The notes under the pieces: generated by a model | Databases searched by the model: none | Told to the model about the DNA's origin: nothing | The model's input: only the letters and a program-made list of their open reading frames with translations | Origin: Caballeronia concitans | GTDB lineage: Bacteria; Pseudomonadota; Gammaproteobacteria; Burkholderiales; Burkholderiaceae | Assembly: GCF_001544615.1 (NCBI RefSeq) | Contig: NZ_FCNV02000003.1 | Location: 496,001 to 560,000, forward strand | Length of the DNA: 64,000 nucleotides | Reading direction: 5' to 3' | Position numbers and translations under genes: made by a program | Shown: one piece after another, positions 8,808 to 61,256 of the stretch | How the letters are laid out: each line of letters opens with the position of its first letter | Numbering within the stretch: the stretch's first letter is position 1

Positions 8808-10423
8808 AGACGTTTTCGACGCTTGCAATCGTCGTGCTCGGCGGCAGCGCGATGCAGACCGCGCGGCGCATACAAGCGCGTTTCGCCGAATCGCGCGTGC
8901 ATGGTCTTGCAAGCCGCGTTAACGCCGACATCGCTTATGACGATTTCGGTGCGCACGTGCGCGCGCTGTATGCGGCTGGCACGCCGATCGTCGCGTTGTG
9001 TTCGGCGGGCATCGTGATACGCGCGCTTGCGCCGTGTCTTGCCGATAAACAAGCCGAACCGCCCGTGCTAGCCGTCGCGCAAGATGGAAGCGCGGTGGTG
9101 CCGCTCGTCGGCGGCATGAGCGGCGTCAACGTGCTGGCGCGTGAGATTGCCGCGACGCTAGGCGTTGCGCCCGCGATCACCACGAGCGGGGAATTGCGCT
9201 TCGGCACGTGTCTGCTTGCGCCGCCTGAAGGTTATGCGCTCGCGGATATCGAACGCGGAAAGCGCTTCGTGTCCGATCTGCTCGCGGGCGAAGCGACGCG
9301 CATCGAAGGCCATGCGCCCTGGCTCGATCACGCCGACCTTCCTCGTGACGATGACGCGCGTCTCGCGGTGCGCGTCACACCGCATATCGATGACGACAAC
9401 GACAGTCTCGTCATTCATCCGCGTTGCGCGGTTGCGTGGGTTCGCAAAGTAAACGAGTCCGTCACGGAACGCGTGCGCGATGCGTTGCGTGAGCATCGAC
9501 TATCTCCGCTTGCGCTCGCCGCACTCGTCGCGCCGATGCACGCCATGACTTGCGACGCCCTCGCCGATGCCGCGCGAGCGCTGCACGTACCGCTGCGTTT
9601 CAGCGACGACGTGCCTTCGCACGACATTGTCATCACCGTCGCGAACGAACCCGTCGATGCGCAAACCATCGGCCGCGCGCGCGGGACGTTGACGGTCATC
9701 GGCCTCGGTCCCGGCAACGTCGACTTCATGACGCCCGCATCGAAAGCCGCGCTCGTCGCTGCACAGGACGTGCTCGGCTACGAAACGTATTTGCGCATGG
9801 CGGGGCCGTATCGCGCGGACCAGCGTGTGCACATGACGGACAACCGCGAGGAATTGCAGCGCGCGCGCCACGCATTCGAACTCGCGAGCGAAGGACGCAA
9901 CGTCGTGGTGGTCTCATCGGGCGATCCCGGCGTCTTCGCGATGGCCGCTGCCGTGCTCGAAGCATTGGACGAAGGCCACGCGATGCATCCCGAATGGCAC
10001 GCGGTCAAGCTCTCGATCTTGCCGGGCGTGTCCGCATCGCTCGCAACGGCTGCACGCGCGGGCGCACCGTTGGGCCATGACTTTTGCGTGCTATCGCTAT
10101 CGGATAACTTGAAGCCGTGGGACGTGATCGAGAAACGCATCCGTCACGCTTGCGAAGCGGATCTCGTGATGGCGTTCTATAACCCGCTGTCGAAAGCGCG
10201 GCCGTGGCAGTTCGATCGCGCGATGGACATCGTGCGGGAACATCGCGATGCAGCAACGCCCGTGGTGCTCGGCCGGGACGTGGGACGTCGCGCGGAAACC
10301 ATGCGCACGGTCACGCTCGGCGAACTGCATGGCGGACTCGTCGATATGCGGACGATGGTGATCGTCGGTTCATCGCGAACGCGCACGATCGGCGAATGGG
10401 TCTATACGCCGCGCTGGTATTGA
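8804..10423 (+). CDS. cobJ: CbiG-like/precorrin-3B C17-methyltransferase fusion
   Basis: The C-terminal half (from about residue 290, [20 protein letters not shown]) is CobJ, which contracts the ring and methylates C17 of precorrin-3[35 protein letters not shown] and [14 protein letters not shown] are its signatures. The first 290 residues match the CbiG N-terminal and central regions ([48 protein letters not shown]). This is a natural fusion seen in other proteobacteria, where the CbiG part has no proven separate activity in the aerobic route. The start at 8804 makes a four-base ATGA overlap with cobI; an ATG three codons earlier (8795) is possible. Confidence 0.92.
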
Positions 10424-50860: not shown

Positions 50861-53800
50861 TGCGCACGCGACAACGCATCATCGCGACGATGCTCTGTGC
50901 CGCGCCCGCGATCGTTCTCGCGCAGGCGAGCGCTGATCCGCTCAACGTGCTCATCGACCAGGGCAAGTACTGGCAGGCGCACAAGCGCGGCGACCTCGCG
51001 GAGCAGGCGTGGCAGAAAGTGCTGCGCATCGACCCGAAGCAGCCCGATGCGCTCTTCGGCATGGGCATGGTGCTCGCGGATCGCAAGGACGGCAGCGGCG
51101 CGCAGCAATACCTCGCGCAATTGCGGCAGGTCGCGCCGAACTATCCGGGCATCGACGAACTCGGGCGGCGGCTCGGCGAAGCGAGTCCGCGCGATCAGAC
51201 CGTCAACGACGCGCGCCGTCTCGCGCAAAGCGGACAGAGCGCGTCGGCGGTGCAGGAATACCGGCGCGCGATCGACGGCAAGCCCGCGACACCAGAACTC
51301 CAGCTCGAGTATTACCAGGCGCTCGCCGCGACGCCGCAGGGCTGGGACGAAGCGCGCCGCGGCCCGACCAGCTCGCGCGCCAGAACGCCGACGATCCGCG
51401 CTACGCGCTCGCCTACGCGCAGCATTTAACGTATCGCGATACGACGCGGCGCGACGGCATCACGCGTCTCGCGAAGCTCGCGGGCGACGGCAGCGTCGGC
51501 GCGCAGGCGAAGAAAAGCTGGCGGCAGGCGCTGTTGTGGCTGGGCGCGCGGGCATCGGATGCGCCGCTGTTTCAGGCGTACTTGCAGACCGCGCCCGACG
51601 ACGCCGCCGTCAAGGCCCGCTTCGACGCGATGGTCCAGCAGGACAAGACCGCCCGCGAGCGCGCGCAGGCGGACGCAGCCGTCGATGCGCGCGGCCGCGC
51701 CGTCGCCGATGGCTTCGCGGCGCTGGATCGCGGCGATCTCGTCGCGGCGCAGGCGCGCTTTTCGGCGGTGCTCGCGGCGAATCCGAACGACGCGGACGCG
51801 CTCGGCGGCCTGGGCGTCGTCGCGCTGAAGCAGGAGCGGTTTGCGGAGGCGCGCACGTATCTGGAACGCGCATCGCGTGCGGGCAACGCCGCGCGCTGGA
51901 AGGACGCGCTCACGAGCGCAACGTACTGGACCTATACGAGCGATGCCATCGGCGCGCGCAGCAACGGCGAAATCGCGAAGGCGAAGGCGCTGTTCGAACG
52001 CGCGATCGCCGTGAATCCGGCCGATGTCACCGCGCAGACGCAGCTCGGCGACATGCTGCTCGGCAATGGCGATGCGCGCGGCGCGGAAGCGGCGTTTCGC
52101 ATGGCGCTGCGCCGTCAGGCCGACAATCCCGATGCGATTCGCGGGCTCGTCGGCGCGCTGGCCGCGCAAGGACGCGGCGACGAGGCGCTCGCGTTCGCGA
52201 ACCGACTGAACGCGGAGCAGCAGGCGAAAGCGGGCGGCATCGACAAGTTGCGCGGCGAGGCGCAGGCCGCGCAGGCGCGCGCGGCCGAAGCGCGCGGCGA
52301 TCTCGGCGCGGCGCGCAGTCTTTTCGAGGACGCGCTGCTCAACATCCCCGACGATCCGTGGCTGCGTCTCGATCTCGCGCGCATCTACGTGCGGCAAGGC
52401 GCGGTCGGCAACGCGCGCAGCATGATGGACGGCCTCGTCGCGACGCATCCCGACATGACCGATGCGCTCTACGCGAGCGCGCTGCTCGCCGCCGAAACGC
52501 AGGACTGGTCGGCGGGGCTCGCGCAACTGGAACGCGTGGCGGCGGCGCAGCGCACGGCCGCGATGACGGCGTTGCAGCATCGCCTGTGGGTGCAGCAGCA
52601 GGCCGAACTCGCGACCCGTGCGGCGAGCGCGGGCCAGCGCGCGCAAGCAATAGCAATTCTGCAGCGCGCCGAGCCGGTCGCGGCGGGCAACGCGGAACTG
52701 ATGGGCGCGGTGGCGTCGGCGTATGTGAAGGCGGGGGATGCGTCGCGCGGACTCGCGCTGGTGCGCGGCGCGATCGCCCGTGCGCCGAACGACACGGGCC
52801 TGCTGCTGCAATACGCCGGCATTCTCTCGTCGACGCAGCAAACCGCCGAACTCGGCGCGGTCATGCGCCGCCTTCAGTCGATGCCGCTCACCACGCAGCA
52901 GCGCGCCGACTTCAACGATCTGAACGTGGGCATCGTGATCGCGCAGGCGGATGCGGTGCGCACGCGCGGCGATCTCGCGGGCGCTTACGACGTGATCGCG
53001 CCGTGGCTCGCCGCGATGCCCGACAGCGCGGACCTTCAAGCGGCGCTGGGGCGCATGTACGCATCGGCGGGCGATGACCGCAACGCGCTCGCGTGCTATC
53101 GCGCGGCGCTTGCGCGTCGTCCGGACGATGCCGCGTTGCAAAGCGCGGTGATATCGGCGGCGACGGGCGTGCGCGACTTCCGGCTCGCGGAATCGCTCGC
53201 GCAGCAGGCGATGGCCGCATCGCCGAACGATCCCGGACTGCTCGCCGCAATCGGACGGATGTATCGCGCACAAGGCAAGCTCGATCTCGCCGCGCAGTTC
53301 CTTCAGCGGTCGCTCGTCGCGGCGAATTCGCCTGTGGTCGCCGGAGCGGGACGCAACGGCAACGTGCCGCGCGACTGGCAGGCCGCGATGAATCGTATCG
53401 GCTCGACGCCGCTTCCCGGGACCAATCCGTTCGAAGGCAAGACGGCGGTCGGGGCGGCGGCGTCGGGGAATTCGCAGGTCAATTTCAATTCGTCTTATTC
53501 GACTCCCGTGCCGACTTATCTGCCGCCTCCACAGCCTGCGCCTTCCGCGCCCTATTCCGCGCCTTATTCCGCGCCTGCCGTTTCGCCTCGTGCTGGCGGC
53601 AGTGGAGGGTACGGGCCGGATTCGTATGGGTCCGCGCAATCGGGCGGGCCGCGTGCGGTGGCGATGCGCGGCGGTGCTACTGGACCGGATGCTTATCGCT
53701 CCGCGCAATCGGGTGCGATGCCGACAGCAGCAAGCGGCGGTTATGAATCCGACATCTACGGCTCCGCGCAATCCGGTGCGGCGCTACAGCCGTATCCAGG

Positions 53801-55388
53801 GCAGGAAGCGGACGCTTATCCGGCAAACGGCAATCAGCCGTATGCGCAGCCGGACCCCTACGCCACTTCGCCCTGGCCGATGTCCCCCGCCGCGCGCGAT
53901 GCGCAATCGGGAAGCAATGCAACGCCTTCGACGGGCAAGCGAGCGGCATCGCGCAAGGCGGCAGCAGCGCCGGCATACGGCGGCCAGCAGCCGGCGTATC
54001 AACAACCGTATCAGCCCTATCAACCGTATCCGCAACAGTACGCCCAGCGACCTTACGCCCAGCAGCCCTACATCCCGCAGCCGCCCGCCGGATACGCGCA
54101 GCCGTACTACCCCGCGCAAGCCCAACGCGCCGCGTCCGCCGCCACGATGACCGCCGGCGGCATGCCCGCGCCCGCCGCGCCCGCCAGCGGCATCGCGAAC
54201 TCGCAGACTGCGGGCGTCGCCGAAGAACTCGCGGCGATCAACCGCGAGCAGGCCAGCACGATCTCGGGCGGCGTCACGTTCCGCAGTCGCGATGGCGAAG
54301 ACGGCCTGTCGAACCTGACCGATATCGAAGCGCCCATCGAAGGCCGCATCAAGGCGGGCAACGGACACGTGATCGTGCGCGCGACGCCCGTCACGCTCGA
54401 CGCCGGCACCGCGAGCAGCACGCCGCAAACTTTGTTGCGCTTCGGATCGGGCAACGGCGCGCTCTCGACGCCGCCCGTCAACAATTACGGGTCGCAGACC
54501 GCGACGGGCGTCGGTCTCTCGGTCGGCTATGAGAATCGCCACTTCAAGGGCGATATCGGCACGACGCCGCTCGGCTTTCGCGAGACGAACGTCGTCGGCG
54601 GCGTGCAATATCAGAACGCGATCAGCGACAAGGTGTCGTATTCGATCGCCGTCGCGCGCCGCGCCGTCACCGACAGCCTGCTCTCCTACGCCGGCGCACG
54701 CGATGCCGGCGCGGGCCTCGAATGGGGCGGCGTGACATCGAGCGGCGGCCGCGCGGACCTCGGCTGGGACGACGGCACGAGCGGCGTCTACGTCAACGCG
54801 GCGTTCCAGTATCTCGACGGCCGGCATGTCGCGTCGAACACCGCCGAGAAAGGCGGCGGCGGCGTCTACACGCGCATCCTCAAGGACGCGGACCAGACGC
54901 TGACGGTCGGCGCGAACACGACGCTCATGCACTACAGCAAGAACCTGTCGTACTTCACGTACGGGCAAGGCGGCTACTTCAGCCCGCAGCAGTACGTGAT
55001 CCTCAATTTCCCGGTCGAATACATGGGACGCGCCGGGCTTTTCACCTACGATGTAAAGGGATCGGTGGGCGTGCAGCATTATCGCGAGGACGCGTCGGCG
55101 ATGTTCCCGGCCGGCGTGCCCGACTCCGTCGCCGTGCCGGACGCGAGCGCGCTGGCTTATCCGGGCCAGAGCAAGACCGGCGTGTCGTATTCGCTCAGCG
55201 CGACCGGCGAATATCAGCTCGCGCCGCAGTTGACGTTCGGCGCGACGGCGTCGTTCGGAAACGCGTATCAGTATCGCGATTGGCTGGCGGCGGTGTACGT
55301 GCGATACAGCTTCAACCGGCAGGGCAACGTGCAGCCGCTGTTCCCGCCGCAAGCGTTCAGCTCGCCGTATCTTTCGTTGTCGAATTAA
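50854..55388 (+). pseudogene. bcsC: Cellulose synthase outer-membrane subunit BcsC, frameshifted
   Basis: BcsC carries cellulose through the outer membrane: periplasmic TPR repeats followed by a beta-barrel. The first frame (50854-51429, 191 residues) has the signal peptide (MLMRTRQRIIATMLCAAPAI then VLAQA) and the first TPRs. At 51363-51366 the reading GGCCCGACCAG lacks one base compared with the expected GGC-CTC-GAC-CAG, so the frame ends at 51429. TPR coding resumes in another frame (NADDPRYALAYAQHLTYRDT) and runs to 55388. That part has about 15 TPR units, a Pro/Gln/Tyr-rich linker (53500-54130) and the BcsC barrel. The length of 4,535 bases is one short of a multiple of three. Confidence 0.9.
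53500..54130 (+). repeat. Low-complexity Pro/Gln/Tyr/Gly linker with SAQSG repeats inside bcsC
   Basis: Between the TPR part and the barrel the coding sequence holds an imperfect peptide repeat: DSYGSAQSGG, DAYRSAQSGA and DIYGSAQSGA at about 53620-53780. A Tyr/Pro/Gln-rich stretch (QPAYQQPYQPYQPYPQQYAQ) follows near 53990-54050. DNA copies of TCCGCGCAATCGGG recur about every 65 bases. This is likely an unstructured spacer in the periplasm; repeat slippage could change its length among strains. Confidence 0.8.
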
Positions 55389-58952: not shown

Positions 58953-59483
58953 ATGAGCTCGCAAGCCAGGCAGCGCCTTGATCGCATCGATATCGGCATC
59001 CTCAACCAGTTGCAGCAGAACGCGCGCATCACGAATGCGGAGCTGGCGCGCGCCGTGAATCTGTCGCCGACGCCGTGTTTCAATCGCGTGCGCGCGCTGG
59101 AAAAAGCTGGGCTTTTCCGGCAGCACGTGACGCTGCTGAGCCCGGAAGCGCTGGGCTTGAGCATCAACGTGTTCATTCAGGTGAGTCTGGAAAAGCAGAT
59201 CGAGGACGCGCTGGCCCGCTTCGAGCAGGCAATCAGCGAGCGTCCGGAGGTCATGGAGTGCTATCTGATGACGGGCGATGCCGACTATCTGTTGCGCGTC
59301 GTGCTGCCCGACGTGGCCGCGCTGGAGCGTTTCATTCTGGAACGGCTCACGAAGATGCCGGGGGTATCGAATATCCGTTCGAGCTTTGCGCTCAAGCAGG
59401 TGCGATATAAGACCGCGTTGCCGCTGCCGGCTTCGGGATTGACGCTGCCCAATCTGAAGGACGATGAAACGGACTGGACGTGA
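58953..59483 (+). CDS. Lrp/AsnC family transcription regulator
   Basis: The 176-residue protein begins [20 protein letters not shown], with the Lrp [23 protein letters not shown] near 29-48 and a C-terminal RAM ligand domain ([20 protein letters not shown]). Such proteins sense an amino acid and control a neighbouring catabolic gene. Divergent placement suggests it controls the E1 gene, in the manner of MdeR or BkdR. It is followed at once by a strong hairpin terminator. Confidence 0.92.
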
Positions 59484-59498
59484 GGCTTTCGGAAAGCC

Positions 59499-59525
59499 AA
59501 AGGCCTCCGAAAACCGGAGGCCTTT
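59499..59525. terminator. Bidirectional hairpin terminator
   Basis: AAAGGCCTCCG (59499-59509) pairs over 11 bases with CGGAGGCCTTT (59515-59525) around five bases, with T-rich tails in both senses. It lies 15 bases after the Lrp-type stop and 40 bases after the end of the convergent peptide array, so it can serve both. Confidence 0.8.
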
Positions 59526-59538
59526 GACTGGTCAGTCG

Positions 59539-59558
59539 CGCTCTCAATTCAGAGAGCG
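59539..59558 (-). repeat. Hairpin just after the last small peptide gene
   Basis: CGCTCTC (59539-59545) and GAGAGCG (59552-59558) pair exactly around six bases, ending seven bases from the stop of the last peptide gene. It may add to the terminator or protect the peptide mRNA. Confidence 0.55.
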
Positions 59559-59564
59559 GCGGTC

Positions 59565-59684
59565 TTAACCGCCGGCGGAAATGTTGATTTCCACCGTAGT
59601 GTTCGACGAAGACGTACTCGACGCCTTGGCGGTGCCACCAGCGATGTTTGCCTGCACGAGAGCGGCGCGATCGATCTTTTGCAT
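59565..59684 (-). CDS. Short Ser/Thr-rich peptide, paralogue 3 of 3
   Basis: The 39-residue peptide begins MQKIDRAALVQANIAGG and continues TAKASSTSSSNTTVEINISA with a final GG. It has no Cys and no signal peptide. The first 17 residues, ending AGG, are identical to the next copy; the Ser/Thr-rich second half varies. GAGG lies ten bases before the ATG. It is the last of three same-strand copies, followed by a hairpin and a bidirectional terminator. AGG before Thr looks like a double-glycine leader cleavage site, so a secreted or modified peptide is possible. I do not recognise a named family. Confidence 0.7.
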   Translation of the reverse strand: MQKIDRAALVQANIAGGTAKASSTSSSNTTVEINISAGG

Positions 59685-59749
59685 TTGAAAACCTCTTGGT
59701 TGAAGTAACGAACGGGAATGCGAACGCTCGAAGCGAGCGTCTGCGTGGC

Positions 59750-59863
59750 TTAAGCCGTGATGGTGACGCTCACGTTGGTGGTCGACGTGGACGTGCTCGA
59801 CGCCTTGGCGGTGCCACCAGCGATGTTTGCCTGAACGAGTGCGGCGCGATCGATTTTTTGCAT
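59750..59863 (-). CDS. Short Ser/Thr-rich peptide, paralogue 2 of 3
   Basis: The 37-residue peptide starts MQKIDRAALVQANIAGG and continues TAKASSTSTSTTNVSVTITA. The ribosome site is the best of the three (TTTGGAGG, seven bases before ATG). At the DNA level its first 60 bases differ from paralogue 3 at only about three positions, so these two are a recent duplication. The C-terminal pattern N-V-S-V-T-I-T alternates polar and beta-branched residues, as in a beta-strand. Spacer to paralogue 3 is 65 bases. Confidence 0.7.
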   Translation of the reverse strand: MQKIDRAALVQANIAGGTAKASSTSTSTTNVSVTITA

Positions 59864-59915
59864 TTCAGTGCCTCCAAAGGAAAGGATCAAGAACGATGTA
59901 CTGCCAGCCCGAATC

Positions 59916-60065
59916 TCAGGACGGGGGAGGAACGGCACCGCCACCGCCACCACTAGACGTGATCGAGATGCTGACATTCGTGGTCGACGACGAGGAACTC
60001 GACGCCTTTGCCGAACCGCCCGCGACGTTCGAAAGAGCCAGAGCGGCGCGATCGATCTTTTGCAT
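59916..60065 (-). CDS. Short Ser/Thr-rich peptide, paralogue 1 of 3
   Basis: The 49-residue peptide starts MQKIDRAALALSNVAGG and continues SAKASSSSSSTTNVSISITS, then a Gly5 stretch and AVPPPS. It is the most diverged copy and has an extra Gly/Pro tail. GAGG lies eight bases before the ATG; an in-frame ATG five codons earlier (MKRFH) is possible, but the homology starts at MQKIDR. It is the first copy to be transcribed. No maturation enzyme or exporter gene lies beside it on the same strand. Confidence 0.68.
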   Translation of the reverse strand: MQKIDRAALALSNVAGGSAKASSSSSSTTNVSISITSSGGGGGAVPPPS

Positions 60066-60359
60066 GTGAAACCTCTTCATTGAACAAAGTAGCAATGGCG
60101 CGAATATGCCATCGACACGTTCAGCCGATTCAACGTTACATAGCCATCCTAATCGATGACACTTGGCCGAATGACGGAACGGAAAGAAGTCTATCGAAGG
60201 GCAACTGGAAAGCACATGCCGAAAAATCTGAACTATTAGTGACGAAACGCAACTATAGGCGGCGCGCTCCAATGTGCGCTTTCAACGCAAAGCCCGGCGC
60301 TGCGTCGTCCGCGTTTAGATAGCAAAATGAGGCCTCTCGGCAACTTTCGCTCACCGCCC
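60066..60359. other. Intergenic region between the peptide array and the Ap4A phosphorylase-like gene
   Basis: These 294 bases are divergent upstream sequence, somewhat AT-richer than the flanks. I see no further peptide copy and no long frame of quality. They must hold the promoter of the peptide array (minus strand); TTGAAT near 60133 with CATATT near 60108 is too widely spaced to call. Confidence 0.5.
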
Positions 60360-61256
60360 ATGACCTCTCCTTCGCACCCGCGCGCTCCTTCGTGGCAGCG
60401 CATCGTCGAGCAGACGGAACACGCCCTCGCGTGCGGCGCGCTGCGCTCGTTCGATACCGTGCCGCATTTCATCGACGATCACGGCGTGCGTTTTCTCGTG
60501 CGCCAGGCGGCGAATCTCGCGCGCAAGGAAGAAGCCGCGAAGCTCGCGGCCAAATCCGCCGCCGATGCCGCCAGCGAATGGCGCGATCCGTTTTCGCCGT
60601 GCGAGGAAGCGCTGCGCGTCGGCGATATCGGCGAGCGGCACTTTCTGCTGCTCAACAAGTTCAACGTGCTCGCGCATCACCTGCTCATCGTGACGACGGA
60701 CTTCGAGCCGCAAGCCGCCCTGCTCGATGCCGGCGATTTCGCCGCGCTCCTCGCCTGCCTGCGCGAGATCGACGGCCTCGGCTTCTACAACGGCGGAAGC
60801 GTCGCGGGATCGAGCCAGCCGCATAAACATCTGCAGATGGTGCCGCTGCCGCTCGACGGCCATCCGTTGCCGATCGAGCCGCTCATCGAAGCCGCCCGCG
60901 ACGCCGCGCCTTTCCGCGTGCCGCAGTTCACGTTCGCGCACGCGGCGGCGTGGCTCGGCGATACATCGTCGATCGGCGCGGCCGATGCGCTCGGCACGTA
61001 TCGCCGGCTGCTGGACGCAATCGGTATCGAACCGTTCGATGTCGCCGGGGCCGCGCATCAGTCCGCGCCGTACAACCTGCTCGTCACCCGCCGGTGGATG
61101 CTCGCCGTGCCGCGCACCGCGTCCGACGTGGAAGGCGTCGCGATCAATGCGCTCGGTTTCGCGGGATCGCTCTTCGTGCGCGACGACGCGCAGCGCCGCA
61201 TCGCCGAAACGCTCGGGCCGATGACGCTGCTCGCACGCGCATCGCGCCCGGCCTGA
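60360..61256 (+). CDS. Ap4A phosphorylase / ATP adenylyltransferase-like protein
   Basis: The 298-residue protein is of the Apa2 type: FHLLNKFNVLAHH-like sequence (HFLLLNKFNVLAHHLLIVTT), GFYNGGSVAGSSQPHKHLQM with the HxH nucleotidyl-binding site, and AAHQSAPYNLLVTRRWMLAV. Apa2 enzymes split diadenosine tetraphosphate with phosphate to ATP and ADP, or the reverse. ATG 60360 is preferred to 60327, though neither has a clear ribosome site. It is followed 84 bases later by the protease gene in the same direction. Confidence 0.88.
   Translation: MTSPSHPRAPSWQRIVEQTEHALACGALRSFDTVPHFIDDHGVRFLVRQAANLARKEEAAKLAAKSAADAASEWRDPFSPCEEALRVGDIGERHFLLLNKFNVLAHHLLIVTTDFEPQAALLDAGDFAALLACLREIDGLGFYNGGSVAGSSQPHKHLQMVPLPLDGHPLPIEPLIEAARDAAPFRVPQFTFAHAAAWLGDTSSIGAADALGTYRRLLDAIGIEPFDVAGAAHQSAPYNLLVTRRWMLAVPRTASDVEGVAINALGFAGSLFVRDDAQRRIAETLGPMTLLARASRPA

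Follow-up and report, generated by a model that had tools for sequence, protein, structure and literature searches.

Short double-glycine-leader peptides of Caballeronia as candidate substrates of a C39-peptidase exporter encoded elsewhere in the genome

The window, by which we mean the whole stretch of 64,000 nucleotides of Caballeronia concitans DNA that was analysed, contains a tandem array of three very short genes whose predicted peptides start alike and end differently, and this raises the question of what such peptides are for and which proteins would act on them. An initial annotation, made from the letters alone, had described three minus-strand frames of 49, 37 and 39 codons, each with its own ribosome site; the coordinates (Table 1) and an AG-rich site shortly 5' of the ATG in each of P1, P2 and P3 agree with this description. 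A common start of 17 residues had also been proposed, and the pairwise identities of P1, P2 and P3 over residues 2-17 (12/16, 12/16 and 16/16) exceed the best of 20,000 residue shuffles, which reached 9. In all three peptides the leader is 17 residues long with Gly-Gly at its end, and the three DNA copies are related as direct repeats, two of them matching the reference copy at 83% and 71% over 115 nt. Pfam assigned the array neighbours scanned as a homologue of PDH E1, a regulator of the Lrp/AsnC type and a homologue of Ap4A phosphorylase, with no maturase and no exporter among them; the earlier statement that the peptides lack Cys is correct, as is, for these neighbours, the statement that no processing or export gene lies nearby.

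Table 1. Positions of the array genes and of nearby features, in window coordinates
Feature	Position	Strand	Remarks
Peptide P1, 49 codons	59916..60065	-	17-residue GG leader, Ser-rich core, Gly/Pro tail
Peptide P2, 37 codons	59750..59863	-	Leader as P1, Ser/Thr core, terminal V/I-S/T alternation
Peptide P3, 39 codons	59565..59684	-	Leader residues 2-17 identical to P2
Two hairpins 3' of P3	59495..59561 (59537-59561; 59495-59529)	-	Second terminator-like
Lrp/AsnC-type regulator	58953..59483	+	Convergent flank of array; Pfam, synteny; site marker
Ap4A phosphorylase-like gene	60327..61256	+	Other flank of array; Pfam, synteny
Long frame, BcsC-like	51009-55388		Cellulose-synthesis TPR/beta-barrel protein, by eye

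The initial annotation knew of no named family for these peptides, and P1-P3 indeed matched no model of Pfam or NCBIfam at E up to 10. Eight members from the exporter cassettes described below gave two matches to NCBIfam, both below cut-off (TIGR04079, E 0.016; NF041144, E 0.11), and two chance-level matches to Pfam. The conserved start is widespread outside this strain, and its absence there would have counted against the earlier reading. Three further paralogs are encoded in the window genome (an assembly of 6.17 Mb in 47 contigs), a pair at C14:176 kb and a single gene at C16:121 kb. Searches with single sequences gave matches in 17/58 genomes of the genus (E up to 0.01) and a profile of 29 members in 21/58 (E up to 0.1; the weakest, 0.02, in G017), while one single-sequence match (G018, E 0.0096) was missed by the profile; in a family-level sample 50 of 398 genomes matched (E up to 0.001), belonging to 4 of 25 genera. 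There are up to seven different paralogs per genome, with cores that vary strongly within and between genomes. The 84 profile-match rows of the genus, in which one G012 peptide is counted as two, divide into 37 within 8 kb of an LPLAT-like gene and 47 elsewhere. Some members have unusual cores or surroundings: the C16 paralog of the window genome (L034 9955-11163) has a much longer core and adjoins a fatty acid hydroxylase gene (PF04116), long-core members are also present in other genus genomes (e.g. L013, L041), and in L036 (5646-9562, G012 C1) two DUF2827 genes called by Pfam and a third similar by eye stand beside a family peptide at 9900, which is also near a gene reading by eye like a trimeric autotransporter. 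Some family members might be included in the survey that Dirix and colleagues made in 2004 of double-glycine peptides from Gram-negative bacteria, which PMC4997328 and PMC5557850 cite. Within the open-access literature searched, judged mostly from listings, no paper was recognised as describing the GG-leader family, and the available parts of PMC9088363 and PMC10809759 contain nothing on the peptide or cassette genes.

A candidate exporter was found beside the paralogs at C14:176 kb. On one side of these two genes stands a chaperone-usher operon (FimA, PapD, usher, MrkD-like adhesin and minor pilin), and on the other a cassette encoding an LPLAT-like protein, HlyD, a C39-peptidase ABC exporter (PCAT) and a TolC-like protein. 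Pfam identified the fimbrial genes, HlyD and PCAT but returned no match for the LPLAT-like protein, and the TolC-like gene was recognised by eye. The PCAT, which is ~375 kb from the window array on the same contig, has a Peptidase_C39 match of 1.6e-24 (Pfam), and its closest counterparts are the exporters of Caballeronia sp. GAFFF1 and 'Burkholderia sp. 8Y'. Its residues Q6, C12, H85 and D101, which we take to be catalytic, are invariant in 9/9 aligned homologues, and its best solved-structure matches by sequence are the ABC-type bacteriocin transporter 4ry2 (presumably PCAT1) and variants, then ComA. A second C39-ABC protein of the window genome (C14:413520, L231), with a strong C39 domain, was set aside as a partner because proteins of ~28-29% identity to the PCAT also occur in many peptide-free genomes of the genus, which makes the PCAT the likelier of two candidate partners. 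By eye, cyclic-nucleotide-binding-like repeats precede the ABC protein in L231, and many genomes of the genus have relatives of it, with the peptides or without them.

This arrangement recurs well beyond the window genome. A genome scan with an alignment of nine PCATs returned 66 loci, one of which (L199, 23% identity) is no true relative and was left out. A family peptide is present at 63 of the remaining 65 loci, with 61 matches above 20 bits and two weak ones (L172, 18 bits; L179, 12 bits and on the opposite strand), and none was found at the PCAT locus in L182 and L192. The type of neighbour that the initial annotation had suggested looking for, a C39 peptidase-ABC exporter, is thus found beside paralogs in the same genome and, counting the two weak cases, at 63/65 exporter loci; of the other types suggested, LanM and radical-SAM enzymes, Pfam gave none among the neighbours scanned. 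A search of the loci for relatives of nine cassette or operon proteins of the window genome gave an LPLAT-like gene in 64/65, HlyD in 65/65 and a TolC-like gene in 62/65. The LPLAT-like gene has been relocated to 3' of PCAT in L172 and L180 and to 3' of TolC in L177, so its link to the cassette survives rearrangement. The loci belong to Caballeronia, Paraburkholderia and their relatives, outlying ones being those of Dyella (peptide match of 39 bits), Rhodanobacter and Herbaspirillum (peptide weak or none), and the cassette is also found, unannotated, on a plasmid record. In two leaf-nodule symbionts, Ca. Paraburkholderia kirkii (L192) and Ca. Burkholderia humilis (L159), the LPLAT-like frame is shortened, and the exporter cassette seems to be decaying in both.

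Peptides and exporter also occur together across the genus. Among 58 genomes, 17 have both, four the peptide only, one the PCAT only and 36 neither (Fisher p 5e-10, a value that ignores shared ancestry), where a PCAT was counted at ≥72% identity (the G065 copy is interrupted by a stop) or when present in fragments (G015, G017 and G018). The peptide-only genomes are G003, G007, G074 and G075, three of which are small and fragmented, and the match in G007 covers 21 residues; the PCAT-only genome is G018, with its PCAT in pieces. Without the three partial-PCAT genomes and G003 the counts become 15, 3, 0 and 36 (p 9e-11, again ignoring shared ancestry). A potential counterexample, G001, with an LPLAT gene and five peptides near 1.21 Mb and no PCAT alongside, was dropped when the PCAT was found at 0.50 Mb on the same contig; in this genome the parts have come apart and yet none has been lost. 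The LPLAT-like gene is present in 16/58 genomes, all 16 of which have PCAT sequence; it carries stops in G018 and G065 and is missing from G015 and G017.

We also compared the array site itself, in 30 of the 48 genomes with an Lrp match. In seven of them (the window genome, G012, G072, G073, G076, G077 and G078) the array is present with the Lrp/AsnC gene on one side and the Ap4A phosphorylase gene on the other, in two copies in six of these and in three in the window strain only; P1 is the third copy, and P2 and P3 have orthologues in six other genomes each. In G064, which has neither a PCAT of this type nor family peptides, the flanking genes adjoin and their matched parts are 128 nt apart vs 898 in the window, and the remaining 22/30 genomes have no Ap4A gene match within the stretch examined. 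Pooled over 21 non-independent pairs, pN/pS is 0.055 in the leader and 0.284 in the core for orthologues of P2, and 0.194 and 0.137 for those of P3, whose leader is therefore not more constrained than its core. As judged from these substitutions the array orthologues are under purifying selection, and this includes the leader, where its absence would have counted against the initial annotation. The hairpins 3' of P3 are apparently kept in the seven genomes with changes on both arms (alignment by eye, pairs uncounted), and their region has an MFE of -43.2 kcal/mol (z -5.29); a consensus terminator scan listed neither hairpin, and scanning the window locus for sigma-70 promoters gave none.

The leader has a recognizable form of its own. 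Its length up to GG is 17 residues in 78/81 cassette peptides. In a set of 105 distinct peptide sequences, for which GG at positions 16-17 was required for entry (as for the sequences entering alignment A1) and in whose genus part positions 4 and 6 were partly fixed by the search pattern, R6 (-12) and L9 (-9) are present in 105/105, I4 (-14) in 98/105, and V, I or L at -4 in 101/105. The canonical PCAT leader consensus is given as Leu -12, Glu -8 and Leu -7 in PMC6959990; the family has Arg at -12 in 105/105, Glu at -8 in 7/105 and Gln or Lys at -7 in 76/105. It nonetheless resembles the double-glycine PCAT substrates described there (CtA of PCAT1 and the LahT substrate) in the terminal GG of the leader, in the hydrophobic residue at -4 and in having a partner exporter with an intact-looking C39 domain, and Ile -14 and Leu -9 reproduce the five-residue spacing of the canonical Leu pair two residues further from GG.

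Behind the leader, the C-terminal half had been described as variable; the cores do vary, but not wholly, as Lys+3 is present in 99/105 peptides. A Cys directly after GG (Cys+1) is found in 61/81 cassette peptides, with at least one such member in 59/63 loci; at +1 of the window copies stands Thr or Ser. Alternating strands had been noticed in the cores of P1-P3, and the mean longest run of hydrophobic/polar alternation there (7.00) is indeed above the values of all 2000 shuffles (mean 3.46, maximum 6.33). The observed alternation of 46 peptides without Cys+1 was likewise reached by 0/2000 shuffles, with the same result after thinning to 27, whereas 61 peptides with Cys+1 show no beta alternation (1924/2000 shuffles reach the observed value).

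Our preferred explanation, which we hold to be probable with some reserve, is that P1-P3 are orphan substrates of a PCAT that acts in trans, being cleaved after GG17, exported and, more tentatively, used as surface or matrix peptides. The initial annotation had proposed a conserved leader with a variable core, as in a RiPP or a peptide secreted by way of a double-glycine motif, or else small beta peptides that self-assemble, with any processing in trans; the double-glycine and in-trans parts of that proposal gain support from the paralogs in the exporter cassette, the linkage and the co-occurrence. P1-P3 would then be precursors of short secreted peptides: the PCAT would bind the 17-residue leader and cut after Gly16-Gly17, and mature Ser/Thr-rich peptides of 20-32 residues would leave through PCAT, HlyD and TolC-like partners. 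We infer cleavage, export and the use of this PCAT by the window peptides from the patterns above. The probable founder peptides would be the members in the exporter cassettes, mostly with Cys after GG, and the window copies would be satellite substrates, Cys-less, beta-alternating and placed between two unrelated genes. More speculatively, the peptides may act outside the cell at the surface or in the matrix, in adhesion or aggregation, in a manner like EbfG and alongside the chaperone-usher pili of some lineages.

The constant presence of the LPLAT-like gene raises a different possibility, that the peptides are lipidated or otherwise modified RiPPs whose precursors are acylated before cleavage at Lys+3, or at Cys+1 of the founders, to give surface-anchored lipopeptides. 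This we regard as doubtful, though deserving of attention. The gene stands at nearly every PCAT locus and stays linked where relocated, within the genus it occurs only together with PCAT sequence, Lys+3 is almost universal, and an orphan paralog of the window genome has a fatty acid hydroxylase gene as its neighbour. The LPLAT-like protein also matches an LpxL-type acyltransferase profile over 98 C-terminal columns (hhalign, probability 94.6), and it shares with LpxL/HtrB-type acyltransferases (PF03279) a His that never varies (His133, 62/62 sequences) and whose surroundings look similar. The catalytic motif of LpxL/LPLAT acyltransferases is HX4(D/E), however, and the LPLAT-like protein has Tyr in place of the acidic residue (position 138, 61/62), in a part that the hhalign match does not cover. 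Pfam Lip_A_acyltrans was found in 2/35 members at a best E of 0.13, none reaching the Pfam cut-off, and no solved chain was matched. With an LpxL profile match but Tyr where an acid is expected, acylation is hypothetical, and any such modification is speculative. A more elaborate version, in which the PCAT cassette acylates precursors at Lys+3 and/or Cys+1 and the secreted Cys-headed and Cys-less beta peptides co-assemble at the surface, is to us decidedly improbable; the LPLAT-like enzyme would act before the cut after the non-canonical GG leader, co-assembly would involve chaperone-usher pili in some lineages, and the window array would be a dispersed set that tunes the mixture.

Other functions would use the same exporter. 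Antibiotics secreted by bacteria typically have a GG motif (PMC4997328), and the Cys-rich founders and strongly varying cores could be those of bacteriocins or microcins exported by PCAT for competition between strains, but we consider this improbable: no immunity gene was recognised among the relatives of nine cassette or operon proteins to which the locus comparison extended, the window cores are polar Ser/Thr-rich strands, a genome can encode as many as seven different paralogs, and selection on the orthologues is purifying, not diversifying. It is very unlikely that the peptides are pheromones read by a receptor in density sensing. Their small size and PCAT export would fit, as for ComA, which is said to export competence peptide; the model of KxxxW-cyclized pheromones (TIGR04079, below cut-off as stated above) has a weak likeness to the leader of a Paraburkholderia member, and a response-regulator-like gene was seen by eye nearby at L144 and L185. 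Against this, genomes contain several different cores, and no receptor or kinase gene recurs in the loci read by eye. Finally, the peptides may not be exported at all but be cytoplasmic small proteins or translated remnants, as the lack of a local exporter at the window array and the four peptide-bearing genomes without a match to this PCAT might suggest; purifying selection, the conserved hairpins after the array and the tight linkage of family and PCAT make this most unlikely.

For the preferred reading, of P1-P3 as exported PCAT substrates, the nearest working model of function would, by analogy, be the EbfG/PteB system of Synechococcus elongatus, in which small GG-motif proteins encoded together (EbfG1-4) are exported with a C39-peptidase transporter and are needed for biofilm (PMC4997328); EbfG1-3 are reported to form amyloid (PMC9981879). 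The likeness, by that description, lies in several small GG peptides with a C39-peptidase transporter. In the present family, however, the leader is nearly always of 17 residues and of another pattern, an LPLAT-like gene is added, the substrate genes lie at several separate loci, and some cassettes have a fimbrial operon next to them. A C39 protease, FapD, is also needed for secretion of the matrix-forming proteins of the Fap amyloid system in a Gram-negative bacterium, but that source describes FapD as periplasmic and outside any ABC exporter, and the Fap proteins as lacking canonical C39 sites (PMC5557850).

The fimbrial operons are not a constant part of the cassette, an idea dropped because complete FimA-PapD-usher sets are found upstream in only 13/65 PCAT loci (usher match in 16/65; some loci are short upstream). 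Ushers are few: each of 31 relatives has 0-5 matching pieces. On a tree of 62/65 exporters and that of the window genome the fimbrial label changes seven times, at least five of these required by starred branches, and clusters more strongly than in 500 shuffles; as this was a quick tree with long-branch warnings, gain and loss of fimbriae are indistinguishable. Though not constant, the fimbrial sets beside cassettes fit a surface role and point the same way.

We have thus tied very short genes without a Pfam or NCBIfam match to a specific exporter, to a specific protein that may modify their products and, in some cases, to pili, through a linkage that runs across Caballeronia and Paraburkholderia and extends to outliers in further genera. 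The double-glycine leaders of this family suggest a form that is missed by the canonical pattern, and one exporter may serve substrates scattered around the genome.
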